DNA from: Ignavibacteriota bacterium
GTDB taxonomy: Bacteria; Bacteroidota; Ignavibacteria; UBA10030; UBA6906
Length of the DNA stretch: 45,727 nucleotides
Reading direction: 5' to 3'
Assembly (NCBI GenBank): GCA_016218065.1
Contig: JACRFA010000075.1
Coordinates: 1 to 45,727 of the forward strand
In this document: in pieces, positions 1 through 40,443 of the stretch
How positions within the stretch are numbered: the first letter of the stretch is position 1
Layout of the letters: each line of letters opens with the position of its first letter
Position numbers and translations under genes: made by a program
The notes under the pieces: generated by a model
Databases searched by the model: none
The model's input: the letters and a program-made list of their open reading frames with translations, nothing else
Told to the model about the DNA's origin: nothing

Positions 1-3000
1 CCGCCTTCTACCATCGTGTCGGATGACTTCCACGACTCGCCGCTCAATACAGGGCTCTGGACGTTCGTCAATCCTCAGGCAGACGCAACACAATCGATCA
101 CTGGCGCGGGCACGACGGATGCTCTTTTGAATATCGTTGTGCCATCGGGTACACGTCATGACATCTACGATCAGGGCTACATCGCGCCGCGCATTATGCA
201 GGCGGCGAACAACACTGACTTCACTGTGGAAGCGAAGTTCCAGTCGACGTTCACCGCGGCATTCCAGCACGAGGGCATTGTAGTCGAGCAAGATGCGAAC
301 AACGTCATTCGGTTCGACATCTACTTTGATGGAACGAACACGAACATCTTTGCTGCATCGATGATCGGCGGCTTTGGTGCGCCGACCAATCACATTAACA
401 TCAATATCGGCAGCGGTGCACAGAACCCGGCGTACATGCGCGTCAACAGGACGGGGAATGTCTGGACGCTTTCGTACTCCTTGAACGGAACGACGTTCAC
501 ACAGGCAGGACAATTCACCTTGCCGTTCACGGTAACGCAGGTGGGCGTCTGGGGCGGCAACTCGGGCACGAACCCGGCGTTCACGTTGCTGTGCGACTAC
601 TTCTTTAACACTGCCTCGCCGATCGTTCCCGAAGATCCGACCGGACCGCCTGCACCGCCGAGCATTACGCAGCAGCCGACAAATCAGACGGTGAACGAAG
701 GACAGACAGCAACATTCACCGTGGCAGCGACGGGTAATCCCGACCCGGCGTATCAGTGGCAGAAGAACAACGTCGATATTAGCGGCGCAACGAACGCGAG
801 CTACACGACACCGGCAACGGTGTTCGCTGACAGCGGCGCAACGTTCCGCTGCGTCGTGAGCAACTCACAAGGCACGGTCACAAGCAACAGCGCGATTCTC
901 AATGTGAATCGTGTTGGTCCGACGATCACGCAGCACCCTGCCAACCAATCTGTTCAGGCAGGTCAAACGGCAAACTTCTCCGTCACAGCGACGGGAAGCC
1001 CAACACTCGCCTATCAGTGGCAGAAAAATAACGTGAACATCGGCGGCGCAAGCACGTCCAACTACACGACCCCGGCAACAGTTGCCGGCGACGATGGATC
1101 GACGTTCAGATGTATCGTGTCGAACGCCGCCGGTACGGTGACGAGCAACTCAGCGACACTCACGGTCATCACCCAACCTGCCGGCACAATCGTCTCTGAT
1201 GATTTCCACACCGGCACGTTGAACAACTCGCTCTGGACGTTCACCAATCCTAACACGCCGTCAACACTCAGTTTCACCGGCATGGGGACGAGCGATGCGT
1301 TGCTTTCGATCGCCATTCCCGGAGGAGGCTCGGGCCACGATGCGTGGACGGGCGGTAATTTCGCTCCGCGCATTATGCAGACGATCACCAACGGAGACTT
1401 CCAGGCTGAAGTGAAGTTCCAATCTACGCCGAGCAGCGCATACCAGATACAGGGCATCATTGTCGAGCAGGATGCAAACAATTATCTGCGGTTTGATTTC
1501 CTGCATATTGGATCTGGCCTGCGTGCATACGCTGCAAGCTTTGTGGGCGGCAACCCGACTCAACGGATCAACGTTGCTACAACAAGCGCCAGCAATCTCT
1601 GGTTGCGCGTGACGCGTACAGGCAACAGTTGGACGCTAGGCGTTTCGACGAATGGAACAACGTTCACGACTGCAGGCACCTTCTCGCACACGCTTACTGT
1701 GTCGAAGATCGGTCCGTTTGCAGGAAACGCGACGGGAGCAACCGCTCCCGCATTCACGGCGCTGATCGACTACTTCTTTAACACGGCGTATCCATCGAAT
1801 CCGGAAGATCCGGTCGCGCCGATCATCACAACACATCCAACAGACCAATCGGCAACACTCGGCAACACAGCAACATTCACTGTCGTCGCGTCAGGAGCTA
1901 GCCTCGCGTATCAATGGCAGAAGAACAATGTTGATATCGGCGGAGCAACTAGCTCGAGCTACACAACACCATCGACGGTGCAACCCGATAGCGGCGCTAC
2001 ATTCCGTTGCGTTGTAAGCAACTCGTTTGGGACCGTCACAAGCAACGTCGCGATGCTTCACGTACTGCCCCCGGCTGTGCCATCGACTCTTGTGTCCGAC
2101 GACTTCAGTGCGGCCACGCTGAACGGTTCGCTCTGGACGTATGTGAATCCTCTCGCCGACGCAACACAGTCAATGGTCGGCACAGGAACATCTGATGCAT
2201 TGCTGAGCATCGCGATTCCCGGCGGAACTGCTCATGATCTCTTCACCAATGGCTACCAGGTGCCGCGCATCATGCAGAACGCCAACAACACCGACTTCAC
2301 GGTCGAGGCAAAGTTCCAGTCGGTCCTCACGGCGCAATACCAGTCGGAAGGTATCGTTGTCGAGCAGGATGCCAACAACGTGATGCGGTTCGATATTTAT
2401 TTTGATGGAACGAATACGAATGTTTTCGCTGCTTCCTTCATCGGCGGATTTGGCTCGCCGACTACACACATCAACAGCGGCATCGCGGGCGGCGCACAGA
2501 ACCCGGCATATCTCCGCATCAACCGGGCCGGCAATAACTGGACTGTATCATACTCACTCAACGGAACAACCTTCACGCAGGCCGGCACATTCACACAGGC
2601 AATCACCGTGGCAAAGGTCGGTGTGTGGGGAGGAAATTCCGGGACCAACCCGGCGTTCACACTGCTGTGCGACTACTTCTTCAATAACGCATCGCCGATA
2701 AATCCTGAGGATCCAACCGGTCCGCCTGTTGCCCCGACGATTACGCAACAGCCGACGAATCAAACTGTGAATGAGGGACAGACTGCCGCGTTTATTGTTG
2801 CCGCCAACGGCAATCCATCGCCCACGTATCAATGGCAGAAGAACACCGTTGATATTAGCGGCGCAACGAATGCGAGCTACACAACTCCCGCAACAGTATT
2901 TGCCGATAGCGGCGCAACATTCCGCTGCATCGTCGGCAATTCGCAAGGCACGGTCACGAGCAACACGGCTATTCTCAATGTGAATCGTGTCGGCCCGACC

Positions 3001-6000
3001 ATTACACAGCATCCATCAAATCAGACAGTCACGGTCGGACAGACAGCGCAGTTTTCCGTCACTGCAACGGGAAGCCCCACGCTCGCGTATCAGTGGCAGA
3101 AGAACAACGTGGACATCGGCGGCGCGAATAGCTCAGGCTATACGACGCCTGCAACAGTACAGGGTGACAGCGGCGCGACGTTCCGCTGCATCGTTTCGAA
3201 TTCAATCGGAACGGTGACGAGCAATAACGCAATCCTGAATGTCAATTCGGCGGCGCCCGGTCAGCCGGTGTCCGACGATTTCAGCTCGGGTACGCTCAAT
3301 GCGTCACTCTGGACGTTCATCAATCCTGGTACGCCATCGACGTTGAGCTTCACCGGAACGGGAACATCCGATGCACGATTGTCGATTGCGATTCCGGCAG
3401 GCAACGCGCATGATGTGTACGCGAACGGAATCGAGGCTCCACGCATCATGCAGACAATCGGCAACGTGGACTTCACAGTTGAAGCGAAGTTCGAGTCCAC
3501 CATTGGTTCACGATACCAGTTGCAGGGTATGATCATCCAACAAGATCTGAACAATTTCATTCGAACAGACTTCTATCATGACGGAACGGGCATTCACATC
3601 TTTGCCGCGACATTTGTGGCAGGATCTCCGACTGTCAGGTTCGACGGACTTGTTCCTGCATCTGCAGCGTTGTGGTTACGCGTGAACCGGGCAGGATCCA
3701 ACTGGACGATTGGCTATTCGACGGATGGAACCTCATTCACGAATTCGTCGCCGTTCTCATTCTCGATGACGACGAGCGCCATTGGCGTGTTTGCGGGCAA
3801 CCAGGGAAACACATCGACGACGGCGCCTGCATTCACAATGCTGTGCGACTACTTCTTCAATGTCTCGTCGCCGATCAATCCCGAAGATCCGTCTGGCCCG
3901 CCGAGCGGACCGACCATTACACAGCATCCGAACGCTGCCGTTGTTGACGAAGGCGGGCGCGCAACGTTCACGGTCGTTGCGAGCGGTAATCCGTTGAACT
4001 ACCAGTGGCAGAAGAACGGCGTTAACATCAACGGAGCAACGAACGCGAGCTACGCCACGCCGGCAAATCTGCTCACTGAAAGCGGCAACAACTTCCGTTG
4101 CATTGTGAGCAATGCCCTCGGCACATCGACAAGCAATCAGGCTCTGCTTACGGTCAATTCTCTTACAGGTCCCGGTATCAATGTCTGGTATGGGACAACG
4201 GAGAACTTCGGCACCGTCGGCGATCCGATTCCATTTGTCAACATACTTGGCAACGCCTCCGACGCAGATGGAATTCAGAGCTTACGGTACACACTGAACG
4301 GCGGCTCAGCTGTTACACTCCAGACAAATGCTGACGGACGTCGTATTGACGAGGTGGGAAACTTCATAATCGAAATTCCGCGAACGTCGTTGAATACCGG
4401 AAGCAATGCAATTGTCATTACGATGACGGATAATCTCAATAACGTGACGACAAAGAATGTCACGCTCAACTACTCCGGCGGCGGCAACACGTGGCCGCAG
4501 TCGTACACCATCGACTGGAACTCCGTGACGAACATACTCAGCGTCGCGCAGCCCTCCGATGGCTTGTGGGCTCCGGATACAAACGGCGTCCGCGTCATGA
4601 AACCGCGGTACGACCGCTTGCTGACAATCGGCGAGCAGACGACATGGAGTAATTACGAGGTAAGCTTCCCGTTCACGGTGTATTCACTTGCCGCGGACGC
4701 GTTCAGCTTCCCAAGCAACAATCCGGGTGTCGGCGTCATCATGCGGTGGAATGGACACACAGACTCGCCGCTGTCGGGCGCCAATCCGAAGACCGGATAC
4801 TTGCCGCTGGGATCGATCGGGTGGTTTACGTGGTCGAATCCGACAACTGGCAACATGCAGTTGCTCGACAACAATGCCAATCCTGCAGCGAACGACTTGA
4901 GCGGGTTCAACATTACGTTCGGAACGCGCTACATGTTCAAGATGAAGGTGTACTCGGCCGGTGTTGGTCAGGCCCCGACGTACCGGTTGAAGATGTGGCT
5001 CGCGTCGCAGGCCGAACCCGGAAGCTGGAACATCAGCTTCACAGGTTCCGCGAGTGATCCGTCGGCCGGTTGTCTTGCACTGGTTGCACATGAGTGTGAC
5101 GTCAACTTCGGTAACATCACCGTCGTGCCGACCGTGTCGGCAGCGCGCCCCGTTCGCAGTCCTGATGACATCGTTGCAATGTATCGCTTCGGTGAAGGAT
5201 CAGGAAACACGATTCACGACGTGGCCGCTCAAGGCGAACCTGCTGAACTGACGGTCGAGAAACCTGAAGCAGCTTCATGGATCAACGGCGGTGGTATTGC
5301 GTTGAATATGCCTTCTGCTATTCAGTCCGCACAGGCAGGATTGAAGATTCTTCAGGCAGTGAAGACATCAAACGCTATCACTGTCGAAGCATGGTTGAAG
5401 CCGACGCTTGTTTCGCAATCTTCACCATTGCATTTCTTCAGCTTGGTGGAGAGAGATGGCGTTCGGCTGCTCGACGTTCAATCTACCATGAACAACGACC
5501 GCTCGGCAATCTCCTTTGAAGCGCAGATGCAGACAGCTGCCGCTTCAATGATCCAGCCGATCGGCTCGCTGGCAAAGGCCAACGGCTTGACTCATGTGGT
5601 CTTCACGCGTGATGCTTCAAGCGAGGCAACGTTGTACCTGAATGGTGAGCCACGCGCCAGCGGGTCACCGGTCGTCAACTTTGCCGACTGGAACGACGCA
5701 ACGCTTGTGCTTGGCGGCGATGAAAGCGGCTGGCTCGGTGAGTATCAATTAGTGGTCGTGTATAGCCGCGCCATCACAGCGGAACAGGTTCGCGTGCACT
5801 TCGAAGGCGGACCGGATGCAGAACTTGCGATGCCTGTGCCCACGAGCATGGCCCCAACCATGAACAACACCATGACGGTTGCTCCGGCGCTGCCGAAGGA
5901 GTTCGCTCTGTATCAGAACTACCCGAACCCCTTCAATCCGAGCACGACCATCAAGTTCGACTTGCCGAAAGACGAGAACGTGACGCTGACGCTGTACAAC

Positions 6001-6159
6001 ATGATCGGTCAGCAAGTCGCGACGCTCGTCAACGAGCGAAAGACTGCGGGCAGCTACTCCATCAACTGGAACGCGCAGAACTTCGCAACCGGCGTGTACA
6101 TCTACCGGTTCAAGGCAGGCAATTTTGTGCAGACAAGAAAGCTCGTGCTGGTGAAGTAG
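1..6159 (+). CDS. Giant secreted repeat protein with Ig-like and concanavalin-like modules and T9SS sorting domain (5' partial)
   Basis: The frame is open from base 1 (first codons read PPSTIV), so the gene begins upstream; the GTG at 16 is not a convincing start. Four ~200-aa modules begin with V-S-D-D-F at 16, 1192, 2092 and 3268 and resemble concanavalin-like/DUF1349 folds. They are separated by six Ig-like domains (YQWQKN ... FRCVVSN ... TVTSN). Next come another Ig/cadherin-like stretch (about 4165-4480), a concanavalin-like region (about 4490-5125), a LamG-type domain (about 5150-5810, MYRFGEGSGN) and the T9SS type A tail (about 5890-6156, QNYPNPFNPSTTI, ending RKLVLVK). By family knowledge this is an exported, surface-attached or released protein, perhaps carbohydrate-binding or adhesive. 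No catalytic motif is seen. A strong terminator follows. Confidence 0.9.
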   Translation, partial: PPSTIVSDDFHDSPLNTGLWTFVNPQADATQSITGAGTTDALLNIVVPSGTRHDIYDQGYIAPRIMQAANNTDFTVEAKFQSTFTAAFQHEGIVVEQDANNVIRFDIYFDGTNTNIFAASMIGGFGAPTNHININIGSGAQNPAYMRVNRTGNVWTLSYSLNGTTFTQAGQFTLPFTVTQVGVWGGNSGTNPAFTLLCDYFFNTASPIVPEDPTGPPAPPSITQQPTNQTVNEGQTATFTVAATGNPDPAYQWQKNNVDISGATNASYTTPATVFADSGATFRCVVSNSQGTVTSNSAILNVNRVGPTITQHPANQSVQAGQTANFSVTATGSPTLAYQWQKNNVNIGGASTSNYTTPATVAGDDGSTFRCIVSNAAGTVTSNSATLTVITQPAGTIVSDDFHTGTLNNSLWTFTNPNTPSTLSFTGMGTSDALLSIAIPGGGSGHDAWTGGNFAPRIMQTITNGDFQAEVKFQSTPSSAYQIQGIIVEQDANNYLRFDFLHIGSGLRAYAASFVGGNPTQRINVATTSASNLWLRVTRTGNSWTLGVSTNGTTFTTAGTFSHTLTVSKIGPFAGNATGATAPAFTALIDYFFNTAYPSNPEDPVAPIITTHPTDQSATLGNTATFTVVASGASLAYQWQKNNVDIGGATSSSYTTPSTVQPDSGATFRCVVSNSFGTVTSNVAMLHVLPPAVPSTLVSDDFSAATLNGSLWTYVNPLADATQSMVGTGTSDALLSIAIPGGTAHDLFTNGYQVPRIMQNANNTDFTVEAKFQSVLTAQYQSEGIVVEQDANNVMRFDIYFDGTNTNVFAASFIGGFGSPTTHINSGIAGGAQNPAYLRINRAGNNWTVSYSLNGTTFTQAGTFTQAITVAKVGVWGGNSGTNPAFTLLCDYFFNNASPINPEDPTGPPVAPTITQQPTNQTVNEGQTAAFIVAANGNPSPTYQWQKNTVDISGATNASYTTPATVFADSGATFRCIVGNSQGTVTSNTAILNVNRVGPTITQHPSNQTVTVGQTAQFSVTATGSPTLAYQWQKNNVDIGGANSSGYTTPATVQGDSGATFRCIVSNSIGTVTSNNAILNVNSAAPGQPVSDDFSSGTLNASLWTFINPGTPSTLSFTGTGTSDARLSIAIPAGNAHDVYANGIEAPRIMQTIGNVDFTVEAKFESTIGSRYQLQGMIIQQDLNNFIRTDFYHDGTGIHIFAATFVAGSPTVRFDGLVPASAALWLRVNRAGSNWTIGYSTDGTSFTNSSPFSFSMTTSAIGVFAGNQGNTSTTAPAFTMLCDYFFNVSSPINPEDPSGPPSGPTITQHPNAAVVDEGGRATFTVVASGNPLNYQWQKNGVNINGATNASYATPANLLTESGNNFRCIVSNALGTSTSNQALLTVNSLTGPGINVWYGTTENFGTVGDPIPFVNILGNASDADGIQSLRYTLNGGSAVTLQTNADGRRIDEVGNFIIEIPRTSLNTGSNAIVITMTDNLNNVTTKNVTLNYSGGGNTWPQSYTIDWNSVTNILSVAQPSDGLWAPDTNGVRVMKPRYDRLLTIGEQTTWSNYEVSFPFTVYSLAADAFSFPSNNPGVGVIMRWNGHTDSPLSGANPKTGYLPLGSIGWFTWSNPTTGNMQLLDNNANPAANDLSGFNITFGTRYMFKMKVYSAGVGQAPTYRLKMWLASQAEPGSWNISFTGSASDPSAGCLALVAHECDVNFGNITVVPTVSAARPVRSPDDIVAMYRFGEGSGNTIHDVAAQGEPAELTVEKPEAASWINGGGIALNMPSAIQSAQAGLKILQAVKTSNAITVEAWLKPTLVSQSSPLHFFSLVERDGVRLLDVQSTMNNDRSAISFEAQMQTAAASMIQPIGSLAKANGLTHVVFTRDASSEATLYLNGEPRASGSPVVNFADWNDATLVLGGDESGWLGEYQLVVVYSRAITAEQVRVHFEGGPDAELAMPVPTSMAPTMNNTMTVAPALPKEFALYQNYPNPFNPSTTIKFDLPKDENVTLTLYNMIGQQVATLVNERKTAGSYSINWNAQNFATGVYIYRFKAGNFVQTRKLVLVK

Positions 6160-6213
6160 CTTGAGGTAAGTGGATTTGGAAGCGGACTAGTGTTTTCCTC
6201 CTCCACCACACAC

Positions 6214-6246
6214 AAAGGGGAGCCTGAAGTTGGCTCCCCTTTTTTG
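6214..6246 (+). terminator. Rho-independent terminator after the giant T9SS protein
   Basis: An 11-bp perfect stem (AAAGGGGAGCC / GGCTCCCCTTT) with a 7-nt loop is followed by a run of T. It lies 55 bases after the upstream stop and between convergent genes. It could also stop pgi transcripts from the other side, though the T run there is shorter. Confidence 0.9.
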
Positions 6247-6263
6247 TTGATGACGCACGCGCG

Positions 6264-8775
<2,512 letters not shown>

Positions 8776-8798
<23 letters not shown>

Positions 8799-9465
8799 AG
8801 CCTCTTCCGTGCACGCTCATGATTTCTACTCGCGGATCGCGCTGCAGATACTTGCGCAGCTTTGAGATAAACACGTCCATGCTTCTGCTATTAAAGTAGC
8901 TGTCATCGCCCCAAATTGCCTTCAGCGCGACGTCGCGCTCGAGCGTTCGGTTGAGATTCATACAGAGCAGTCGAAGCAACTCGGATTCTTTGCCGGTGAG
9001 TTTCTGCTCGTCCTTCCCACACTTGAGCGTTTGCGTCTCGGAGTTGAATGAGAATTTGCCGAGCGTAAACTCACGGCGAGGCTGCTCTGATTCCGCAGGC
9101 TTTGTTGTGCGTCGAAGAACAGCCTGCACGCGCAGCAGCAGTTCCTCCATGCTGAACGGCTTCGTGATGTAATCGTCGCAGCCAATCTTGAATCCTTCGA
9201 TGCGATCGTGCTTCAGTGACTTTGCCGTGAGAAAGATAATCGGTGTTGTCTGGTCTTTCTCGCGCACTTCCTTCGCAAAGGTGAAGCCGTCTTTCTTCGG
9301 CATCATCACATCAACCAAACACAAATCGAATTTGTCCTGATGGTACGCAGCGATGCCATCGACGCCGTTCACGTTCAGCCGAACGTCGTAGCCATTCATT
9401 TCCAGCTGCTCTTTGAGAATGAAACCGAGATTCGGATCGTCCTCAAGAAGAAGAACTTTTTTCAT
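8776..9465 (-). CDS. OmpR-family response regulator
   Basis: Cytoplasmic DNA-binding partner of the kinase encoded just upstream. The receiver domain occupies 1-120 with acidic residues Glu8-Asp9-Asp10, phosphoacceptor Asp52 (CLVDVMMP), Thr80 and Lys102 (DDYITKPFS). A winged-helix Trans_reg_C domain covers about 130-228 (LTGKESELLRLL ... DVFISKLRKYL). The start overlaps the 3' end of the kinase gene by 23 bases, so the two are co-transcribed and probably translationally coupled. The overall look is like the RprY-type regulators of Bacteroidota. The 3' end overlaps the convergent exonuclease gene by 23 bases. A plausible target is the divergent PDZ/ABC operon (see TAAC repeats). Confidence 0.95.
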
Positions 9466-11173
9466 CTGTTCGGATTGGCAAAGTGATTTCGACAGTCGTA
9501 CCCTTGTTGGGTGTGCTCATGATTCGGACCGAGCCGCGATGCGCTTCAACCATCAGCTTCACATAACTCAGTCCCAGCCCAAAACCTTTCACGTCGTGCC
9601 GATTGCCGGTTGAGACGCGGAAGTACTTGTCGAATGCCCGCTTCGTATCTTCGCTCGTCATGCCGATACCCTGATCGCTAACACGAACGACCACATGCTC
9701 GCTGACATTTTCGGTGCTGATCTCGATCTGCGGCTGATCGGGAGAGTACTTGATCGCGTTCTCGAGAAGATTGTGCATGATGTTCGAGATGTGCACGGCA
9801 TCGCCATCGATGACATGCCGCTCGGCGTCCAGCGTTGTTGCGACATTTCCCTGTTTGCTCTCCACGTGCAGCATAATGTTGTCGACTGCCGAGGCAATGA
9901 CATCGTGGACGTTGATGGGCCCTAGCTCCAGCTCTGCACCTCCTTCCTCCAGTGTTGCCATCTGGAGAATTTTTTCCACTTGATGTCGCATGCGACTGTT
10001 CTCGTCCTGAATCACGGAACTGTAGCGCGCGGCTCGTTCGTTGTCGGAAAGAACATCCGTTCTCGATAATGCCTCAGCGGCAAGTGCAATAGTCGAGATC
10101 GGCGTCTTGAACTCATGCGTCATGTTGTTGATGAAGTCGACCATGTGCGACGCCATGCGCTTTTGCGTGAACACCGTTCTGATGGTGTAGCCGAATCCAA
10201 ATATCACCATCGAGATGAACACGCACGTCGCGGCAATCATCGGAGCGATTTGCTTCAGCACAAACATTCTCCGCTCAGGAAAGATGAGTGCAAGATCATT
10301 CTGCTCGGCAAACAGGTCGCCGGGGAAAAGCTGCGATCGGAACTCCGAACGCCGAAGCTGCTCGGCAAAATCGGACGAGTTCGCCAGCGTGACCGAATCG
10401 TTTGAGGAGATTACGCCGAACACGTACGGCGTCTCGATCCCCGATTCGTGCAATGCGCGAGCGGCGAAGGAATCAATCTTGCTCACACTCAACCGTCGCT
10501 CGATGGGCAATCCCTCAACAAAAATGAGTTTGTCGAACGCTTTGCGCACGGCTTCTTCACGTTCTCTTGTCGGCACGCCGCGCTGAATCGGAGCGTGGGT
10601 ATCGCTTGTCGCAACGCTGACGACAAACGACATGCTGTCTGCTGAGTATTGAAAGACCCGCGTCATGCCTGCGCGATGGACTGTGTCGATACGCGTCTCA
10701 TACGTGCCGGGCAACTTCATCGTGTCGATCAATATTGTGTCCGAGCCGCCGCCCGGATCGAACATACGCAGCCGAATGTGTTGAGGCTTTTCTACTCTGT
10801 AGCGAACGCGATTTCCCAATACTTCGAGCGGCGGTTTCTGAAGTTTCTCGCCGGGCGGAAGGAGATGGTCGAATTGCCTGGCTTCGACGCGTACCTCCCC
10901 TCCCGCGCTTCCTTTTCGTGCGCCGACCACCGCGATGGTTGTCTTGCGGCCATTCGCTAGGGGCGCACCGGCAAATGCGAGCTGCCGCGCAGTCTCGTCG
11001 CTCTCCAGCCGCTGAACTATCGATGCAAGCGCAGCCGACACATTCCGTTGAAACGCCTCCTCCCTTTGCTCGACTGTGTTCATCAGCAGATGAACCTGAA
11101 GCCAAATGAGTCCGACAAGCGCGACGGCGCTCAACGCGATGATCACGAGAATTGTCCGTGGGTTCAGTCTCAT
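9443..11173 (-). CDS. Membrane sensor histidine kinase
   Basis: Inner-membrane sensor, 576 aa. TM1 is at about 7-28 and TM2 at about 308-332, enclosing a ~280-residue periplasmic sensor region with no domain I recognise. No clear HAMP follows TM2. The H box is at 348-360 (FINNMTHEFKTPIS, His353), N box at 469-475 (LLENAIK, Asn472), G1 at 500-504 (DQGIG) and G2 at 530-535 (GFGLGL). All catalytic boxes are intact. The gene precedes and overlaps the response regulator. The signal sensed is unknown; divergence from an ABC exporter set suggests envelope stress or an exported substrate, which is inference. Confidence 0.95.
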   Translation of the reverse strand: MRLNPRTILVIIALSAVALVGLIWLQVHLLMNTVEQREEAFQRNVSAALASIVQRLESDETARQLAFAGAPLANGRKTTIAVVGARKGSAGGEVRVEARQFDHLLPPGEKLQKPPLEVLGNRVRYRVEKPQHIRLRMFDPGGGSDTILIDTMKLPGTYETRIDTVHRAGMTRVFQYSADSMSFVVSVATSDTHAPIQRGVPTREREEAVRKAFDKLIFVEGLPIERRLSVSKIDSFAARALHESGIETPYVFGVISSNDSVTLANSSDFAEQLRRSEFRSQLFPGDLFAEQNDLALIFPERRMFVLKQIAPMIAATCVFISMVIFGFGYTIRTVFTQKRMASHMVDFINNMTHEFKTPISTIALAAEALSRTDVLSDNERAARYSSVIQDENSRMRHQVEKILQMATLEEGGAELELGPINVHDVIASAVDNIMLHVESKQGNVATTLDAERHVIDGDAVHISNIMHNLLENAIKYSPDQPQIEISTENVSEHVVVRVSDQGIGMTSEDTKRAFDKYFRVSTGNRHDVKGFGLGLSYVKLMVEAHRGSVRIMSTPNKGTTVEITLPIRTDEKSSSS

Positions 11174-11312: not shown

Positions 11313-12056
11313 ATGCATCGTCAGTTGATTTCACTTTTCGGTATCCTGCTTCTCTTGTTCGCGACAGAAGCATCTCCATCGCAAGTCATTATCAAGCGCG
11401 AGGCAGGGAAAGGCGCCATTGAAGAACAGCCGGTCGTACTCATGGAAGCCGGAGCAATCATGGTCATGAAAGATGGGAGTGTGATTGTCGATCACTTGCT
11501 GCCAAAGGATCGACTGCCAAAAGGAAGCCAAGCGGTCGATCTCAAAGAAGGCGACGTGATTCTCATGGCGAATGGAAAGAAACTCAAGAGTGCGAAAGAG
11601 CTTGAGGGATTTCATGCATCGCTAGCTGTCGGGGGCGAACTGAAGCTCGGCGTGCAGAGAGGCGACCAGAAATTCATAGTCGCTGTGACGAAAGCGGATC
11701 CGAAAGATCTTCCGCAGATGCGGATCAAGATCGGTGGGGGCGGCGGCGAAGATCTCGAGGCACTTCCCGCTGTGGGAGTAGTTCTGAAGTCACTCAACAA
11801 CAAGATTCTCGTGGACGCCAAGTTTCCCGATTCCACGTCGGCGCTCGCGTCGGCAAATGTCAAACAGAACGATCAGCTTGTTGAGATGAACAAGCATCGT
11901 ATCTCGACGATGAAGCAGCTGATGGACGACTATTCGGGTCTGCCGATTGGCTCAAAGGTCGAATGGAAACTGAAGCGCGGGAGCGAGACAATCACAGTGA
12001 ACTTCATCAAACCAAAGCCGCGTCAAGGCGTCATCCGGCGCGAAATCAAGAACTGA
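11313..12056 (+). CDS. Exported protein with two PDZ-like domains
   Basis: 247 aa. An N-terminal signal peptide (about 1-23, LFGILLLLFATEASPS) points to the periplasm. Two PDZ-like segments follow. The first is at about 60-130 (LKEGDVILMANGKKLKSAKEL) and the second at about 155-240 (VKQNDQLVEMNKHRIST...LPIGSKVEWKLKRG). No protease motif (HExxH or Ser/His/Asp arrangement) is visible, so this looks like a binding or scaffold protein rather than a peptidase. GGAG lies 8 bases before the ATG. It is the first gene of the five-gene ABC set; the next gene starts 28 bases after its stop. Its partner is unknown. Confidence 0.75.
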   Translation: MHRQLISLFGILLLLFATEASPSQVIIKREAGKGAIEEQPVVLMEAGAIMVMKDGSVIVDHLLPKDRLPKGSQAVDLKEGDVILMANGKKLKSAKELEGFHASLAVGGELKLGVQRGDQKFIVAVTKADPKDLPQMRIKIGGGGGEDLEALPAVGVVLKSLNNKILVDAKFPDSTSALASANVKQNDQLVEMNKHRISTMKQLMDDYSGLPIGSKVEWKLKRGSETITVNFIKPKPRQGVIRREIKN

Positions 12057-12084
12057 CATTGGCGATTCCTCACTTTGAGATGCG

Positions 12085-13581
12085 ATGAGACTCAACGTTC
12101 GTTTTAGATTCATTTTAGGATCGATGGCCGCCCTCCTTGCCGTGCAGGCGCTTGCACAGGTTAACTACAATCAGCGCGACGACAAGTATCGCCTGCTCGG
12201 TCTCAAGCGCGCAAAGGAAGCGTACGAGACTGCTCGCAGTGAACATGAGCGCTACAAGGATTTGCATGCGAAGGGACTGATCTCCACCGCCGAACTTGAC
12301 CGGAGCAACAACGGCTTTTCGGACGCCGAAGTGAACTACCAGCAATCGTTGCTAGCCGTGTTGTTCGAATCGCAATACGTGTCGGTGTCGAGAGCCATCA
12401 AGTATAAGACGAACGATGGAGGCAAACACGTGAAGCTGCGGATTGCAAACACATCAGGCGGCGGCGCTGAATTTCAAAAGCTCCTCAACATTGACGATCA
12501 GCTCTTTCGTTCGCTGCAACCCGACGTCATCAACAACGTGTATGTCTCGCTGTTGAATGAGCAGGGGTCGATCATCAGTCAGCCGTATGAAGCGAAGATC
12601 GCCGAGTTGCAGCATGGACGCCCGAAGGATTTGGACTTTACGCTGCTGCAAGATCTCGATGCTGTCACGGTGAGCATGATCTACGCAAACGGTACATCAC
12701 GCACGATGAAAATCTTCCTTCAGAAAGACGCGACGGCCAACAAAGTTCTGGTCCAGTCTGAACAGTTCTCGCAGGAAGCTGACCTTGGCACCTCCGCGAC
12801 GTTCGATCTGACATTGGAGCTGTTCAGCGGAGCAAACACGACATACACTCTCGAAGTCGTGAACCTGCCGCGGCAGATCAATCGCTTTTTCAAAGACCCG
12901 ACAGGACAGGCGCGACTGAGCCAGATCAAATTCACCGAAACAACGAACACACGAAAAGCCGCGCTCGAAGTCTCGCTTCCCGACCGTCCAACGACCGAAG
13001 TCGCGATGGACAAGCCGATTCCCTTTTTCGTGTTGGTAATCCCGCGCGAACAAATCGGCTCGCTGCATCACCTTCAGACCAGAGAATGGACGCAGGAAGA
13101 GATTGAGAAACTCGGCGTTGGATATGCAAAGCTGGAACTGCTGCCCCGCGGCAAAGGACGGCTGCTCGTGCGAGCACCGCAGCTTTTTCACTCCATCAAG
13201 TCTGATGGCGCCGCTGAGATGACGATGGAGTTGGTCAATGAAGGCACGCGTCGGCTCGACAACATCCAAATCAAAGTCGATCAACCGCTCAACTGGTCGA
13301 AGACGATTGAGCCATCCGTCATCACAACATTAGGCATCGGGGAAGAGAAACGAGTCCGGCTCTCGTTCACGCCGCCAGCATCGGCAGAAGTCGGCAAGTA
13401 CGAAATGCGCGTGCAGACATCTGCCCTCTCCGACAATCAACCCATAAACGGCGAAGACAAATCCGTGACCATTGAGATTCAGGCGAGCGCGAGTTTCTTC
13501 GGCACAGCGTTGCTCGTGCTGTTGATGGTCGGTCTCGTCGCAGGCATCGTCATCTTTGGAATCCGTCTATCAAAACGATAA
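12085..13581 (+). CDS. Membrane-anchored NEW3-domain protein with TolC-docking-like helical hairpin
   Basis: 498 aa. Signal peptide at about 1-25 (ends QALAQ). Residues 35-95 form a short heptad-like helical hairpin whose turn carries R56-x3-L60-x6-S67 (RYKDLHAKGLIS), the pattern known from the hairpin tips of adaptor proteins such as AcrA, MacA and HlyD. No lipoyl or beta-barrel domain flanks it. The middle (about 100-365) is beta-rich and unrecognised. About 370-465 matches the NEW3 domain style (LVNEGTRRLDNIQIKVD ... VRLSFTPP). A single C-terminal TM at about 473-493 ends in RLSKR. The protein should sit in the periplasm, anchored in the inner membrane, next to the ABC transporter it is encoded with. 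The function is inferred only. Confidence 0.75.
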   Translation: MRLNVRFRFILGSMAALLAVQALAQVNYNQRDDKYRLLGLKRAKEAYETARSEHERYKDLHAKGLISTAELDRSNNGFSDAEVNYQQSLLAVLFESQYVSVSRAIKYKTNDGGKHVKLRIANTSGGGAEFQKLLNIDDQLFRSLQPDVINNVYVSLLNEQGSIISQPYEAKIAELQHGRPKDLDFTLLQDLDAVTVSMIYANGTSRTMKIFLQKDATANKVLVQSEQFSQEADLGTSATFDLTLELFSGANTTYTLEVVNLPRQINRFFKDPTGQARLSQIKFTETTNTRKAALEVSLPDRPTTEVAMDKPIPFFVLVIPREQIGSLHHLQTREWTQEEIEKLGVGYAKLELLPRGKGRLLVRAPQLFHSIKSDGAAEMTMELVNEGTRRLDNIQIKVDQPLNWSKTIEPSVITTLGIGEEKRVRLSFTPPASAEVGKYEMRVQTSALSDNQPINGEDKSVTIEIQASASFFGTALLVLLMVGLVAGIVIFGIRLSKR

Positions 13582-13600
13582 ACACAACCGAGGGAAGTCA

Positions 13601-14344
13601 ATGGAATCAGGTCAACCGGTGTTTGAGGCAATCGGCCTCACAAAGAAGTACGAAGACGAGACGCTCGCTCTCGACCACGTATCGTTTTCCGTGCGAGCAG
13701 GAGAAATCTTCGCCATGCTCGGCGGCAACGGCGCGGGCAAGACAACGACCATCAATCTCTTTCTCAACTTCATCGAACCGACGGAAGGGGAAGCGCGCAT
13801 TAACGGCATTGCTTCTCACAAAGATCCGCTGACAGCAAAGCGCAACGTTGCGTTCGTCTCCGAGAACGTGATGCTGTATCCCAACTTCACCGCATTGCAG
13901 AATCTGGATTACTTTTCAAGGTTGGGCGGGAAGACGCAGTACTCGAAGGAAAACTATCACGCTGTTCTTCGCCGGGTGGGACTGCAGGAGGAGGCACACA
14001 CCAAGCGGCTGCGTGGATTTTCGAAAGGCATGCGACAGAAATGCGGCATCGCGATCGCCATTCTCAAGGATGCGCCCGCCATTCTCCTTGATGAGCCGAC
14101 GTCGGGACTCGATCCGCAGGCGGGCTTCGAGTTCATCGAGTTGCTGAGATCATTGCGCGACGACGGCAAATCCATCCTCATGTCCACGCATGACATTTTC
14201 CGCGCGAAAGAAGTCGCTGACGTCGTCGGGATCATGAACCGCGGTAAACTCATCATGCAAAAGCACGCCGCCGAACTTGCCGGACACGATCTTGAAGAAC
14301 TGTACATGAAGTACATTGCCGGCCACATTCGCGACGCGGCCTAA
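13601..14344 (+). CDS. ABC transporter ATP-binding protein (ABC-2 type)
   Basis: 247 aa from the ATG at 13601, chosen because GAGGGAAG sits just upstream; a longer frame from 13556 would overlap the preceding gene and hide this site. Walker A is GGNGAGKTT at 41-49, signature FSKGMRQK at 140-147, Walker B AILLDEP at 160-166 (catalytic Glu165) and H-loop His197. The Q-loop position reads S-E-N (about 87-89), with Glu in place of Gln, as in many ATPases that pair with ABC-2 permeases (Gld/Nos/Ccm-like). It should power the two permeases encoded directly downstream. Substrate not deducible. Confidence 0.95.
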   Translation: MESGQPVFEAIGLTKKYEDETLALDHVSFSVRAGEIFAMLGGNGAGKTTTINLFLNFIEPTEGEARINGIASHKDPLTAKRNVAFVSENVMLYPNFTALQNLDYFSRLGGKTQYSKENYHAVLRRVGLQEEAHTKRLRGFSKGMRQKCGIAIAILKDAPAILLDEPTSGLDPQAGFEFIELLRSLRDDGKSILMSTHDIFRAKEVADVVGIMNRGKLIMQKHAAELAGHDLEELYMKYIAGHIRDAA

Positions 14345-14369
14345 CGATACGGCGTAGAAAGGACCTGAC

Positions 14370-15785
14370 ATGTTTCGACTCTTGATTGAGAAAGAACTGC
14401 GTGAGATTATCGGCTCAACGAAATTCGCCGTCTCCTTCGGCGTGTGCTCGATTCTCATTCTGCTTGCATTCTACCTGGGCGCAGCGAACTACCTCGCAAG
14501 CGTGGCTCAGTACAACGCGGCGAGAGCAGAGAACCTTCGCCAACTTGAGGGCCTCACGGATTGGCTTGCTGTGCGGGATTATCGCATCTTCTTGCCGCCG
14601 CGACCGCTCACGACGCTCGTCTCAGGAATTGCCAACGATGTCGGCCGCACGATTGAGATCAACGGCCGCGGCGATCTCGTCGCGCATGACAGTCGGTACG
14701 GCGACGAGCCTATCTACGCGATCTTCCGGTTCCTTGATCTGGATTTTGTTTTTCAGATCGTGTTGTCGCTCTTCGCCATCGTGTTTGCCTACGACTCCAT
14801 CAACGGCGAGAAAGAGCGAGGCACGCTTCGGCTGACGTTCGCCAACGCGGTACCAAAAGCTCACTACATTCTGGCAAAGCTCATTGGTTCGTATGCAGCG
14901 TTGGCGGTTCCGCTGCTGATACCGCTCGCGCTCGGATCCCTCCTGCTTGTTGTGATGGGAATTCCACTGTCATCCAACGAATGGATGCGACTCGGCGTTA
15001 TCATCGCCACGGGGATTGCGTACGTTGGGGTGTTTCTCACGCTCTCAATCCTTCTCTCATCGTTAACACAACGATCGTCAACCTCCTTCTTGATGCTGCT
15101 CGTCATTTGGGTGATGTCGGTAATCATCGTTCCCCGCGGTGCGGTGTTGCTCGCCGGACGCGCCGTCAGTGTTCCGACAATCGAAGAGAACAACGCCAAG
15201 AAAGGAAAGCTCAACGCGCAGTTGTGGCGCGAAGATCGTGAAGCAATGACCAAGTTCCAACCCTCATCATCATCGGATCCGCAGAGGATGGCAAGCGAGT
15301 TTCAGAAACTCATGCAAGAAATGGCCGACAAGCGCGACGCACGCATGAAGCAACTCAGCGACAGGCTGAATGAAGAGCGGACGAATGCGCAACAGGTTCA
15401 ACGAGGCCTCGCCTTCGGCATCGCCCGCGTTTCTCCGGCGGCAACGTTCGCTCTCGCGACCACTGCACTGGCAGGAACGTCTCTCGATTTGGAATATCTC
15501 TTTCGCGATGCAGCACTGGCCTACCAACAAGCGTACGCGGGCTTCATGTTCAAGAAGACGGGCGTCAATCTCAGCCGCGGCATGATCATTATGCGAACGG
15601 AATCCGGCGACCCTGAGAAACCGAAGTCCATTAACGCCAACGAGTTGCCTGTGTTTACCTACTCCGAGCGTGGAGTCTCTGAAGTGATGCAAGCCGTCCT
15701 TCCCGATATTGGACTTCTGCTTCTCTACAACGTGTTGTTCTTTGCGGGAGCGTTCGTCGCGTTCCTGCGCTACGATCTACGATAA
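14370..15785 (+). CDS. ABC-2 permease, first of two paralogues
   Basis: 471 aa. About six TM segments are predicted by eye: about 20-40, 125-145, 170-195, 205-230, 240-265 and 440-465. A ~80-residue loop follows TM1. After TM5 comes a ~170-residue loop rich in charged helices (FQKLMQEMADKRDARMKQL). The conserved ABC-2 motif GEKERGTLRLTFANAVPK follows TM2. The architecture fits permeases with a DUF3526-like middle region. AAAGGA precedes the ATG. Related over its length to the next gene, with the same motif and the same C-terminal AFVAFLRYD ending, so the pair probably forms a heterodimeric channel. Substrate unknown. Confidence 0.88.
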   Translation: MFRLLIEKELREIIGSTKFAVSFGVCSILILLAFYLGAANYLASVAQYNAARAENLRQLEGLTDWLAVRDYRIFLPPRPLTTLVSGIANDVGRTIEINGRGDLVAHDSRYGDEPIYAIFRFLDLDFVFQIVLSLFAIVFAYDSINGEKERGTLRLTFANAVPKAHYILAKLIGSYAALAVPLLIPLALGSLLLVVMGIPLSSNEWMRLGVIIATGIAYVGVFLTLSILLSSLTQRSSTSFLMLLVIWVMSVIIVPRGAVLLAGRAVSVPTIEENNAKKGKLNAQLWREDREAMTKFQPSSSSDPQRMASEFQKLMQEMADKRDARMKQLSDRLNEERTNAQQVQRGLAFGIARVSPAATFALATTALAGTSLDLEYLFRDAALAYQQAYAGFMFKKTGVNLSRGMIIMRTESGDPEKPKSINANELPVFTYSERGVSEVMQAVLPDIGLLLLYNVLFFAGAFVAFLRYDLR

Positions 15786-15803
15786 CGTTTCAACGGAGTG
15801 AGA

Positions 15804-17270
15804 ATGCTTTCCACAATCATTGTCAAAGAACTGAAGAACATCATCGTCAGCCCAAAATTCTCCGCAACATTTGCAGTCACATCGCTGTTGTTGTTGCTCA
15901 GCGTGTACGTCGGAATCAATGAGTACCAGGCGACAACACGTCAATACGAAGCAGCAACGGGTCTTGTCGATCAACGACTGCGCGAGACCAGATCGTGGGC
16001 GCGACTCAGTAACCGTGTGTATCGCGTGCCGAATCCGATGCACGTGTTTGTCGCCGGCGTGAACAACGACATCGGTCGCACATCGATCATCGATCCCACG
16101 GAGCAGGTCAAGCTGACCAACAGTACCTACAACGACGAGCCGATCTACGCAGCGTTCCGCTTCATCGACTTTACATTTATCGTGACGATCATCTTTTCGC
16201 TGTTTGCGATTCTCTTCACGTATGATGCCGTCAACGGTGAGCGTGAGAACGGCACGTTGCAACTCACGTTTGCCAATGCACTCCCCCGCGTGCACTTCAT
16301 CGCGGGAAAGTTTGTGGGACTTTGGCTCGGATTGATCGTGCCGCTGTTGATTCCTATCGTCCTGAGTGTCGTGCTTGTCCTTGCGTACAAGATTCCGCTG
16401 GCGGTTGACCATTGGATGTCGGTCGCGGCAATCGTCCTGGTCTCGCTCCTCTTCTGCACATTCTTCATCGCGTTTGGCATTTGCATCTCAGCTGTCACAA
16501 GACGATCAAGTACGTCGTTCCTGTTTCTGCTTGTCGCGTGGATTGTCATCTCATTCATCCTTCCGCGTGCAGGCGTCATGGCCGCAGGCACGCTTCACCC
16601 GGTCGCATCCGTTGCTGAAGTGGAAGGCATGCGTGAGGCATTTGCGAAGCAGATCTGGGCGAAGCATCGCGACGAGATGCAAGAGCGGTTCCGCAAGCGT
16701 GCGGATGAGATGCAGAACATGACGGCGGAAGAACGATCGGCATACGAAGATGAACACGCGTGGGAGATGATGGAGCAGGAAGACAAGGCGCGCAAGGACA
16801 TTCTCAAGCAGATTGATCTGTTGGGCAAGAAGCTGGAAGAAGAGACTCGCAACGGCAGACGACAGCAGGAAGGGCTTGCACTTGTGTTGTCTCGATTCTC
16901 ACCCGCGTCGGCATATCAACTCGCCGCCATGACCCTCGCAGGAATGAATATCGATGTGAAGTCGGCATACGAAGATGCGCTCTCCGCGTATCGCGCTTCG
17001 TTCGTCACCTACAAGGAGAAGAAGGAGAAAGAGTCCGGCGACAGCGGCGGCATCCGCATCACGGTCGATTCGAACACCGGATTCAAATTCTCAATGGGAC
17101 GGGAGTCAGGCTCGCTCGACATTTCGGAAATGCCGCGCTTCAATGCATCACGCTTTTCGTTTTCCGGGGTGCTTGCGTCTGCGCTGCCCGATATCGTGCT
17201 GCTCTGCGCGTTTACATTCCTTGCGTTCGCGGCAGCGTTCGTCGCGTTCTTGAGGTATGATGTGCGATGA
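15804..17270 (+). CDS. ABC-2 permease, second of two paralogues
   Basis: 488 aa from ATG 15804, which has GGAG five bases upstream; the GTG at 15798 would overlap that site. Same plan as its neighbour: TM1, an extracytoplasmic loop (RVYRVPNPMHVFVAGVNND), the motif GERENGTLQLTFANALPR, TM3-TM5, then a large loop and a last TM before AAFVAFLRYD. The large loop is strikingly charged and helical (about 275-360, e.g. EMQERFRKRADEMQNMTAEE). This is consistent with a coiled coil able to contact the NEW3/PDZ partners, which is inference. It ends 11 bases before the convergent dsbD-like gene. Confidence 0.88.
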   Translation: MLSTIIVKELKNIIVSPKFSATFAVTSLLLLLSVYVGINEYQATTRQYEAATGLVDQRLRETRSWARLSNRVYRVPNPMHVFVAGVNNDIGRTSIIDPTEQVKLTNSTYNDEPIYAAFRFIDFTFIVTIIFSLFAILFTYDAVNGERENGTLQLTFANALPRVHFIAGKFVGLWLGLIVPLLIPIVLSVVLVLAYKIPLAVDHWMSVAAIVLVSLLFCTFFIAFGICISAVTRRSSTSFLFLLVAWIVISFILPRAGVMAAGTLHPVASVAEVEGMREAFAKQIWAKHRDEMQERFRKRADEMQNMTAEERSAYEDEHAWEMMEQEDKARKDILKQIDLLGKKLEEETRNGRRQQEGLALVLSRFSPASAYQLAAMTLAGMNIDVKSAYEDALSAYRASFVTYKEKKEKESGDSGGIRITVDSNTGFKFSMGRESGSLDISEMPRFNASRFSFSGVLASALPDIVLLCAFTFLAFAAAFVAFLRYDVR

Positions 17271-25515: not shown

Positions 25516-28500
25516 TCATTTGACTAGCATGAACTTTTTGGTCTGACGGAAAGCGCCTGCTTCCAATCTATAAAAATACAGACCCGAAGCAAAGTTCCCT
25601 CCATCGAAAGAGACTTTGTATTCCCCCGACTTCAGTTGTTCGTTCACGAGCGTCGCAACTTCGCGGCCAAGCACGTCATAGACCTTGAGAATTGTGAATT
25701 GTCCCGAAGGGATGCCTTCGGCATGATTCTGAATTGTGAACCGGATATTCGTTGACGGGTTGAATGGATTCGGATAGTTCTGCCCGAGCGAAAATTCCTG
25801 TGCAATCACTCCAGGCTGCTCTTCGACGCCCACAAGAATCGAGTCCGCGCCGCCGAACTGATAGTAGCGCGCGGCAAACTCCTGCAGATATTGGTTTGCG
25901 ATGTTTCCGTCACGCACGATCATCATGTTTTCGTTGTTAGCATTCTCTGCGGAGCTTGTCCAGTTGTGCGAGCCGGTGAGCGTTACTGCATTCCAAATCG
26001 GGTTCTCGGCGTCGATGATGCCGTACTTGTGATGCAGCAGCCCGCTGGTACCGCTGGATTTCAGTCGCACGTCAACTCCGTTGTTGACCAGAACGCGATA
26101 CTGCGAACCGGTATCCGTGCTGTCATCGAGGTTGCCGCGAACTTTCTTGCCGGCGTTCTTCTTGTTGCGGAGCGCGGTCGCAATGCCGCTGCGCGTCAAG
26201 GTCAAGAGCTGGAAGCCGACAGAATGCTCGGCACGGTTGATCTCGTCAACGATTCTCGCGTCCGCGCCATCGCTCGGACTGAAGTACGCCTCAACCGGCT
26301 TTCCTCCGATCACAAACTTATGCGGCGTGTTGTTGGTCTTGCGTGCGCCAAATCGCGAATTTGCGCCAACCGGCGTTTCGCCGGAGCTTCCCCACATTTC
26401 ATTGAATTCGATCGTAAACGCGTTCGTGAGGGCCGCATCCTGAAATTCAATTGCATTCTGGAAGTCTGCGTTCGTTCCGGGATCGGTCGGGTTCCACGAG
26501 CCGGTCCAGACCCAGACGCTTTCCGGCGCGCCGCCCCTGCCATCGATAACAAAAAACTTATTGTGCATCAGGCCGGCGCCGTTGTTGATCGCATCAAATT
26601 TATCCGAGATTAGCGGAACGCCGTTGCTGGAGAGAAACGTGAGCGCCGCTGAATTCTTGTTGTCGTCTTCGCAAATGGCCCGCACCTTCACGCCGCGATT
26701 CTTCGCCGCCACGAGCGCACTGGCAATGTCGGTTCCCGGCTGGCCGCTCAGACTGTACACTGCAAGATCGATGGAACGCTTCGCGCTCGCAATCCGTGCA
26801 ATCAGTCGCTGCGGCAGATTCTGATTGCCGAGCGCCGGCTGATACCACGCGAGACTCGTGTTGACGCTCTTGTTAAAGTACGCGTTCACAGCGCCGGTGC
26901 TCTGCGCGGGCGAAGCGGTGCTCGCCAGAAACGTCGCAGCAAAACTCGTGTCGCTCCCCGACGCGGAGAATGCCTGGATGTAGTAGGCTGTCGCAGGAAG
27001 CAACGTCGTGAGCGCGATGCTATGACTCGTTTGCAGAATTGAATTGGTTACCGCGCCAAGCTCCAACGCAGACGTTCTTCCGTAGCGAACACCCGATGTG
27101 CCGTTGTGCAGCGTTGTCCACGTAATTGTCAGCGCGGTCGGCAGAATGGTGGATTCCGTCGGCGCAGATGCGATGATAGGTCCGGTCGTAATCTGGTCGG
27201 CGACAAAGCGCGGCAGAAGCTGGTAGCCGCCAATGTACGGCGCCGGGCTGATGAACTGTCCGACAACGCCAATGATGTCGAACGAGCCGCCCGGTATTGG
27301 CGTTCCGATCAGGTTTACCGGATCGTCGATGCGAAGCTGCGTGCTGCCGCTTGCATCGGTGAGCGTGTAGTTGGTGTTTCCTGTCCACGTGCCTGCTGAT
27401 GCGACCGTGACATTGTTCAGTCGCACAAGCCGACATTCGTATTGCTCAACGCCGCCGACGCCGTCATTCGCAATCTGCGATGCGGCGACGATCATTGGCG
27501 TCACAACGTTGCCCGAGCTCGCGATCGAATGCAGCGTCGGGTTGACAATCTCCGTCAGTCCGTTGAAAGGCTGCACAAGCCCGGAGACAATCACTTCATC
27601 ACCAATCGACGCCGCGGTCGAAAACGATGAGCCGAAGATTGCAAGTCCGCCGCTATTATCCTGAATGTACGATGGCCCGCCGAACTGATTTGCGACCGTC
27701 ACGATGCCGCGCACAGTAACAAGCGTGTTGTTCCGCAGCGGAACGCCGTTGGCATCGTTCTGCTGAACAGCCGAGAGAGACAGCGGCGTGCTGTAAATGA
27801 AAATCGACGGCTGCGTTCCGATCGGATACACTGAATCGGGATGCGTTCCGGTTTTGACATTGAAAACGAAGTACGCCGTAGTATCCGCCGGCGTGATGTT
27901 GCTGATCTGCACGCGCAGCGTGTCGCCGCCGGCAACATTCGTGTTCGAAACAACGACAGTATCACCGGCAACTGCAACGGTCGGACTTCCGCCTCCCGAC
28001 ACGATGAGATCGGCCACCGATCGTGACCACGACCATGACGAAGGCACAGCGATGCGCGTGCGAACAAGTGCGTACGGTGTTTGCCCCGCGACCTTGATCG
28101 TCACCGAATGACTTGCTCCGCCGGAAAGCGTTGAGGGCAAAAGGCTCGCCGAGCCGCGGCCAACTTGTCCGCCTGAAGTACTTGCATCCGTTTCTTGTCC
28201 GGCAGTGATCGCCCACGGACCGACAAACGCCTGATCGCGCGAGCCATCGTCGTTAAACGTCACGAGTGAGTCAACAAATCCGGCAGGCACGGCAATCTTG
28301 AATCCGCCCGCGCCGTACGAGTAGCCCTCCACAATTGCATTGTCCTCGGTACGATACGTGCCGACGATGTTGCCGCCGGAGTACGCAACGATTCCCTTGT
28401 TCACCGCCGGCGATGTTGCGCGAACAATCCAGCCTCCCGTTCCACCACTCGTCATCGACAGCACGTTCAATGTCATCTGCGAACTTGTCAGGTTTGTGCT

Positions 28501-38403: not shown

Positions 38404-38499
38404 CGTACCTCTCCTTTTTGTGAATGGTTGTTGAATTGATGAACTGAGTGCCCGCATCGACTGCATGCAGACTCATGATTAAGACAACCTGATTGCGCA

Positions 38500-40291: not shown

Positions 40292-40395
40292 GATTCTCCT
40301 TATAAGTAGTGAAGTGTGTATGTGGTCGCTGGCTCTTCTATGGCGAAGAAGCGTTCGCATCTTCAAAACGGAAAGAGACCAATGTGCCATGAAGC

Positions 40396-40443
40396 AAAAA
40401 AACAAACGGCTGCCGGAAGGTGACCAATCTCCGGCATGCCGTT
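40396..40443 (-). terminator. Terminator of the PorV-like operon
   Basis: On the minus strand AACGGC.TGCCGGA pairs with TCCGGCA.TGCCGTT (12-13 bp, one bulge) and runs into TTTGTTTTTTTG. It closes the TonB receptor / 1055-aa protein / PorV-like set. Confidence 0.88.

Follow-up and report, generated by a model that had tools for sequence, protein, structure and literature searches.

A NEW3 protein with an adaptor-type alpha-hairpin encoded in a widespread ABC-2 transporter operon of diderm bacteria

The 45,727 nucleotides analyzed here (the window) are one entire contig, JACRFA010000075.1, of the 5.17 Mb genome of an Ignavibacteriota bacterium. At positions 11313-17270 the window contains five plus-strand open reading frames (ORFs) that, according to Pfam, code for a two-PDZ protein, a protein with a NEW3 domain, an ATP-binding cassette (ABC) ATPase and two ABC2_membrane_2 permeases. 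The NEW3 protein carries an alpha-hairpin homologous to that of the periplasmic adaptors that dock on TolC, with the RLS residues of these adaptors conserved at its tip. This architecture, the homology of the hairpin, the conservation of its tip, the linkage to ABC genes and the presence of TolC homologues in every genome tested are established by sequence analysis and structure prediction. The explanation that we find best, by a slight preference, is that the ABC-2 transporter works with an inner-membrane-anchored, adaptor-like partner made of immunoglobulin-like (Ig) and NEW3 domains, which would dock its RLS tip on TolC for export.

Architecture of the NEW3 protein

The protein and its parts, all on the plus strand, are as follows (AF2 stands for AlphaFold2, TM for transmembrane and pLDDT for the predicted local distance difference test score).

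12085-13581, plus strand: Hairpin-Ig-Ig-NEW3-TM protein of 498 amino acids; PF10633 at residues 377-445, AF2 pLDDT 90.5, about 100 relatives
12085-12156, plus strand: signal peptide, residues 1-24; hydrophobic helix 2-23 in the model, N-terminus variable in the alignment
12190-12369, plus strand: adaptor-type alpha-hairpin, residues 36-95; AF2 helices 36-62 and 68-95, homology to periplasmic adaptor hairpins
12250-12285, plus strand: RLS tip motif R56-x3-L60-x6-S67, conserved in non-redundant relatives
12379-13479, plus strand: three Ig-like domains, residues ~99-211, 221-320 and 346-465, from DSSP of the AF2 model
13495-13578, plus strand: C-terminal TM helix 471-497 with a short basic tail; AF2 helix, end conserved in the alignment

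The initial annotation, made from the sequence alone, had described a short helical hairpin with R56-x3-L60-x6-S67 at its turn, and the AF2 single-chain model (64-row alignment, mean pLDDT 90.5, predicted template modeling score, pTM, 0.65) agrees with it. The motif, R56-YKD-L60-HAKGLI-S67, spans the turn between the two helices, and rather than being disordered the hairpin is confidently predicted, with block pLDDT values of 90-95 across residues 41-80. In the domain order the hairpin is at the opposite end from the membrane anchor, the relative placement of the domains being uncertain at a pTM of 0.65.

Neither of the other two parts of a canonical adaptor could be recognized. Pfam gave no Biotin_lipoyl or HlyD_D23 match in the NEW3 protein, and the N-terminal half of a lipoyl domain would not fit ahead of the hairpin, where there are only the signal peptide and some 10 residues. 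The adaptor beta-barrel had no Pfam match either, the full-length profile aligned with adaptors at residues 39-89 only, and the model shows Ig-like sandwiches. The initial annotation had interpreted the protein as a stripped-down adaptor without lipoyl and barrel domains, anchored by a C-terminal TM helix and using NEW3 as its body. The anchor and the lack of any sign of both domains hold, while the direction of change implied by "stripped-down" is probably wrong (see below). NEW3 (PF10633, residues 377-445, E 1.9e-11) does belong to the body, although this is made up of three Ig-like domains of which NEW3 is only the last. By fold comparison, this last domain resembles the Ig domain of a sialidase (Z 12.3, 99 residues, root-mean-square deviation, rmsd, 1.9). 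A single-sequence search of the PDB with the whole protein found chance matches to NtcB only, and Foldseek with the whole model was swamped by Ig-domain proteins (integrins, ciliary HYDIN-like), so that the hairpin was barely probed.

Homology of the hairpin and conservation of its tip

The pattern R-x3-L-x6-S alone would be expected by chance in many proteins. What takes the present case beyond chance is the combination of conservation, homology to adaptor hairpins and a negative reversed-sequence control, and on these sequence comparisons the likeness to the hairpins of periplasmic adaptors is one of homology and not a chance motif. For the window protein alone, NCBIfam returned four families, each of them an adaptor family, with weak matches inside residues 24-90. 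When the hairpins of its relatives were used (n = 55), CzcB/NccB was matched by 55/55 (best 1.5e-8), RND_mfp and MdtN by 53 each, and PRK03598 HlyD and EmrA by 51 each; ten reversed copies of the hairpin produced zero adaptor-family matches in NCBIfam. The nine top matches in a PDB search with the hairpin profile were also all adaptors (E 0.0016-0.081).

The comparison with HlyD-family hairpins that had been proposed earlier revealed homology, with the three residues in register. Using as reference a profile of 12 canonical adaptors encoded in this genome and in related ones, hhalign aligned the hairpin with a probability of 97.6% (E 4.3e-12, 51 columns) and placed R56, L60 and S67 on the R, L and S of the adaptors; with the full-length NEW3 protein, the hairpin region alone aligned. 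A hidden Markov model (HMM) of these 12 adaptors, run at E 1e-3 on the 2958 ORFs of the 80 loci described in the next section, retrieved three canonical-adaptor-like ORFs, 72 NEW3 proteins and nothing else. The NEW3-family profile, when run on 395 genomes of the phylum, had its secondary matches mostly on the hairpin and in adaptor-sized ORFs, and those checked by Pfam or inspected were canonical adaptors.

One could still consider the hairpin a generic helix-turn-helix whose composition is SHOCT- or TolC-like and which resembles adaptors by chance, as there are weak Pfam cross-matches to SHOCT (7/55 members) and to OEP (40/55, best 1.7e-6). However, adaptor families are ahead in number and in score, the OEP cross-match is given equally by canonical adaptors, the reversed controls were negative and the adaptor HMM was specific among the 2958 ORFs. 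We have accordingly rejected SHOCT or OEP as the origin of the hairpin, since adaptor families match better and more often, and regard chance similarity as already largely refuted and very improbable.

The RLS motif is defined as R-x3-L-x6-S at the cogwheel tip of adaptors, where S is a permissive position that is T in HlyD (PMC3391258). Among 64 relatives with less than 85% identity, R56 is R in 62/64, position 60 is L, M or I in 64/64 and position 67 is S or T in 55/64, the complete R-[LIM]-[ST] pattern being present in 53/64. R56 ranks second in information among positions 46-79. Conservation along the hairpin is strongest at the base (29-45, 80-98), with a narrower second peak at the tip and a variable middle. 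In a second draw R56 was kept in 45/45 rows inspected (some genomes appearing twice), which included a paralogue clade at ~42% identity. The conservation of R, L and S among orthologues, to which the initial annotation had tied its proposal, is therefore borne out. The motif was lost in two divergent relatives, L098 and L111, the second of which (4824-6344, 40% identity, n = 1) is also the one relative without matching ABC genes alongside. Certain TolC adaptors are without RLS (PMC4446572).

The hairpin and its RLS tip are thus held in common with the periplasmic adaptors of the HlyD/RND MFP type (AcrA, MacA, EmrA, CzcB, YbhG). In contrast to them, the hairpin of the NEW3 protein follows directly after the signal peptide and has no flanking lipoyl domain and no barrel, but three Ig-like domains and a C-terminal TM anchor. 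By domain definition the protein falls outside the adaptor family; the term adaptor-like protein, with a hairpin borrowed from the adaptors, describes it best.

Genomic context, distribution and origin

As claimed in the initial annotation, all five genes are co-directional on the plus strand; a two-component system is found divergently on the minus strand.

8776-9465, minus strand: OmpR-type response regulator (Response_reg and Trans_reg_C in Pfam), on the opposite strand next to the operon in many loci
9443-11173, minus strand: sensor histidine kinase (HisKA and HATPase_c), divergent from the operon, with a minus-strand homologue in at least 45/80 loci
11313-12056, plus strand: secreted two-PDZ protein without lipobox (PDZ_2 and PDZ), upstream of the NEW3 gene in at least 52/80 loci
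13601-14344, plus strand: ABC ATPase of DrrA/GldA/NosF/ABCA type (ABC_tran; NCBIfam drrA and GldA; ABCA3/NosF)
14370-15785, plus strand: ABC-2 permease 1 (ABC2_membrane_2, PF12679, E 1.7e-26; weak DUF3526)
15798-17270, plus strand: ABC-2 permease 2 (PF12679, E 9e-29), with a NosY-like core and a presumably periplasmic helical insert of ~190 residues

The ATPase ORF was listed as 13556-14344 from a TTG at 13556, the ATG at 13601 being the likelier start.

The order PDZ, NEW3, ATPase, permease 1 and permease 2 recurs across 80 loci. Linkage could be tested in the 75 that have sequence past the NEW3 gene, and in 70 of these the ATPase gene comes directly after it; in L105, L107 and L110 the ATPase and permeases are upstream, and in L109 a permease is next. 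Altogether the NEW3 gene is linked to ABC genes in 74/75 testable loci, so that the linkage expected from the window is near universal. All four genes for the adaptor-like protein, the ATPase and the two ABC-2 permeases, on the plus strand, were present in 60/80 loci, many of the others being cut by contig ends. The counts for the PDZ gene and the kinase are lower bounds, many contigs being short. The PDZ protein, earlier imagined as a scaffold of the machine, is common but not universal, which indicates that the core can do without it. In the paralogue clade formed by L107, L110 and L105 (~42-48% identity) an ATPase and two to four permeases precede the NEW3 gene, which ends the set, and the members inspected keep RLS.

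All the relatives that bear a name belong to diderm groups and spread over many phyla: Ignavibacteria, Zixibacteria, KSB1, Calditrichota, Rhodothermales/Balneolaceae, Krumholzibacteria and Acidobacteria, together with one Pseudohongiella and one deltaproteobacterial metagenome-assembled genome. The Pseudohongiella case (L091) is an orthologue operon on a contig labeled as this gammaproteobacterium, by horizontal transfer or binning error. The TolC family (PF02321) was detected in 25/25 system-carrying genomes tested. The idea that the operon is served by a separate, canonical adaptor was rejected, all 16 HlyD_D23 matches of the genome being on other contigs. In the KSB1/Caldithrix relatives a beta-lactamase-fold hydrolase (PF00144) or an S41 peptidase is found in the operon or at its edge (L037:4013-5476, L087:6481-7944, L057:126-1586, L047:3404-4924 and L087:10398-11414), possibly a hint at the substrate or at an envelope function.

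Simpler versions of the system throw light on its origin. In three Bacteroidota genomes (L163, L164 and L165) we found hairpin-less NEW3-TM proteins (L158, L159 and L162) whose genes are, in 3/3 examined, directly followed by those of an ATPase and an ABC-2 permease. As in the window, a NEW3 protein with a C-terminal TM helix is encoded directly before the ATPase and permease genes; these sets differ in having no hairpin, no PDZ gene and one permease, and the divergent two-component system was not seen in them. The existence of a hairpin-less NEW3 partner of ABC-2 transporters makes it more likely that such a partner gained an adaptor hairpin by fusion than that an adaptor lost its body. Inside the class, the Ig1-Ig2 body was never seen without the hairpin, which was present in every readable match (28 genomes); this indicates that the fusion is stable.

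Elsewhere in the window there are signs of type IX secretion, with four large Por_Secre_tail proteins and a PorV-like protein (16-6159, 25516-28902, 36685-38466, 38558-40405 and 40477-41520); the first Por_Secre_tail protein (16-6159) also has Ig and Laminin_G domains and the second PLD-like domains.

Docking on TolC, force transmission or packing

In the export machine that we slightly favor, one ATPase and two permeases would form an ABC-2 transporter with a periplasmic partner anchored in the inner membrane. This partner would be an adaptor of unusual build, with the TM helix at its C-terminus, a column of three Ig domains and the adaptor hairpin at the far end, in which the Ig column may act as a periplasm-spanning stalk raising the hairpin tip to TolC. 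Multiple copies are expected around the transporter; docked tip-to-tip on a TolC-type channel whose gene lies elsewhere in the genome, they would let a putative substrate out through both membranes. In this scheme the PDZ protein would serve as an accessory in the periplasm, with the operon genes plausibly under the control of the divergent two-component system. Several observations weigh against this scheme. The NEW3 protein has no lipoyl domain, which is thought to help adaptors to oligomerize; L098 has no RLS residues yet retains the linkage to ABC genes; and the hairpin weakly cross-matches OEP at the sequence level. TolC is so frequent in the carrier genomes that its presence says little, and a search with an OEP profile derived from no more than five sequences found no TolC gene beside the operon in any locus examined. 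Finally, the permease core is nearest to NosY, and NosDFY is not known as a classical exporter.

This last point leads to the main and serious rival, force transmission without export, in which a NosY-like ABC module, powered by ATP, would drive movements of the Ig stalk and its hairpin that act on a periplasmic or outer-membrane partner with no passage of substrate, in the manner of NosFY on NosD, FtsEX on EnvC or MacB on MacA-TolC. Contact of the hairpin with TolC, or with something else, may still occur in this case. Permease 2 has its nearest core in NosY both by sequence (E 4.1e-7) and by fold (Z 27.4, 249 residues, rmsd 2.2). In its model, TM5 and TM6 are separated by a helical insert of ~190 residues that presumably lies in the periplasm and contains helices 272-305 and 310-365, the latter 56 residues long; NosY chains, of ~275 residues, are too short to accommodate it. 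The PDZ proteins, and the PF00144 hydrolase or S41 peptidase at KSB1 loci, would also suit work on the envelope better than efflux. NosDFY has in common with the present system the fold of the permease core, the type of ATPase and the pairing of an ABC module with its own periplasmic partner. NosD is, however, a beta-helix protein, and no NosD-type domain was found by Pfam in the five operon proteins, whose partner is an Ig/hairpin protein and whose permeases are two different ones. Besides, the ATPase is also near lipid and drug exporters, and a generic lever would not need the RLS residues that are specifically kept here. We consider force transmission unlikely, bearing in mind that it overlaps with export, as MacB has been described as a mechanotransmission machine inside an efflux pump (PMC5985334).

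A hairpin of adaptor descent could also have been turned to other uses, oligomerizing the stalk or binding the permease or the PDZ protein, with the tip kept for packing and not for TolC. The conservation of the hairpin base above that of the tip suits this idea and indicates that a second interface exists. On the other hand, R56 and L60 are conserved in isolation at the tip, beside a variable middle, the domain order places the hairpin far from the membrane anchor, and the tolerance of S to T matches that of TolC-binding adaptors, all of which makes packing alone an improbable reason for the tip, more so than force transmission.

Among known exporters, the same gene content as in the window is found in Escherichia coli YbhG-YbhF-YbhS-YbhR, where a periplasmic hairpin protein, an ATPase and two ABC-2 permeases are encoded in one operon. 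The differences are that the adaptor body of our system is unrelated and not canonical HlyD-family, that its permeases carry large inserts and belong to the NosY/ABC2_membrane_2 type, and that PDZ and two-component system genes are added. YbhFSR has been studied before (PMC7190983). Reviews describe TolC adaptors as modular, with a lipoyl and barrel core, and present BesA as retaining this body without the hairpin (PMC4446572, PMC8277102); the hairpin-Ig-NEW3 family is its mirror image, with the hairpin retained and the body replaced. In a literature search, chiefly of open-access papers and with preprints outside its scope, we found no published description of the hairpin-Ig-NEW3 system and no papers joining NEW3 with an ABC transporter and TolC, or COG1470 with ABC-2.

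The gene set suggests a second route for coupling an inner-membrane pump to an outer-membrane channel. With a confidence just short of even, we propose that it represents a second, independent TolC adaptor architecture, in which the docking hairpin would have moved from the lipoyl/barrel scaffold to an inner-membrane-anchored Ig/NEW3 column to serve widespread, undescribed ABC-2 machines of diderms, the hairpin being a portable docking module. If docking on TolC is true, the hairpin tip alone would define an adaptor, the lipoyl ring and the barrel would be dispensable, and the system would have a direct bearing on the tip-to-tip debate and provide a simple test system for it. In addition, a conserved operon of many little-studied phyla would then be assigned a role.

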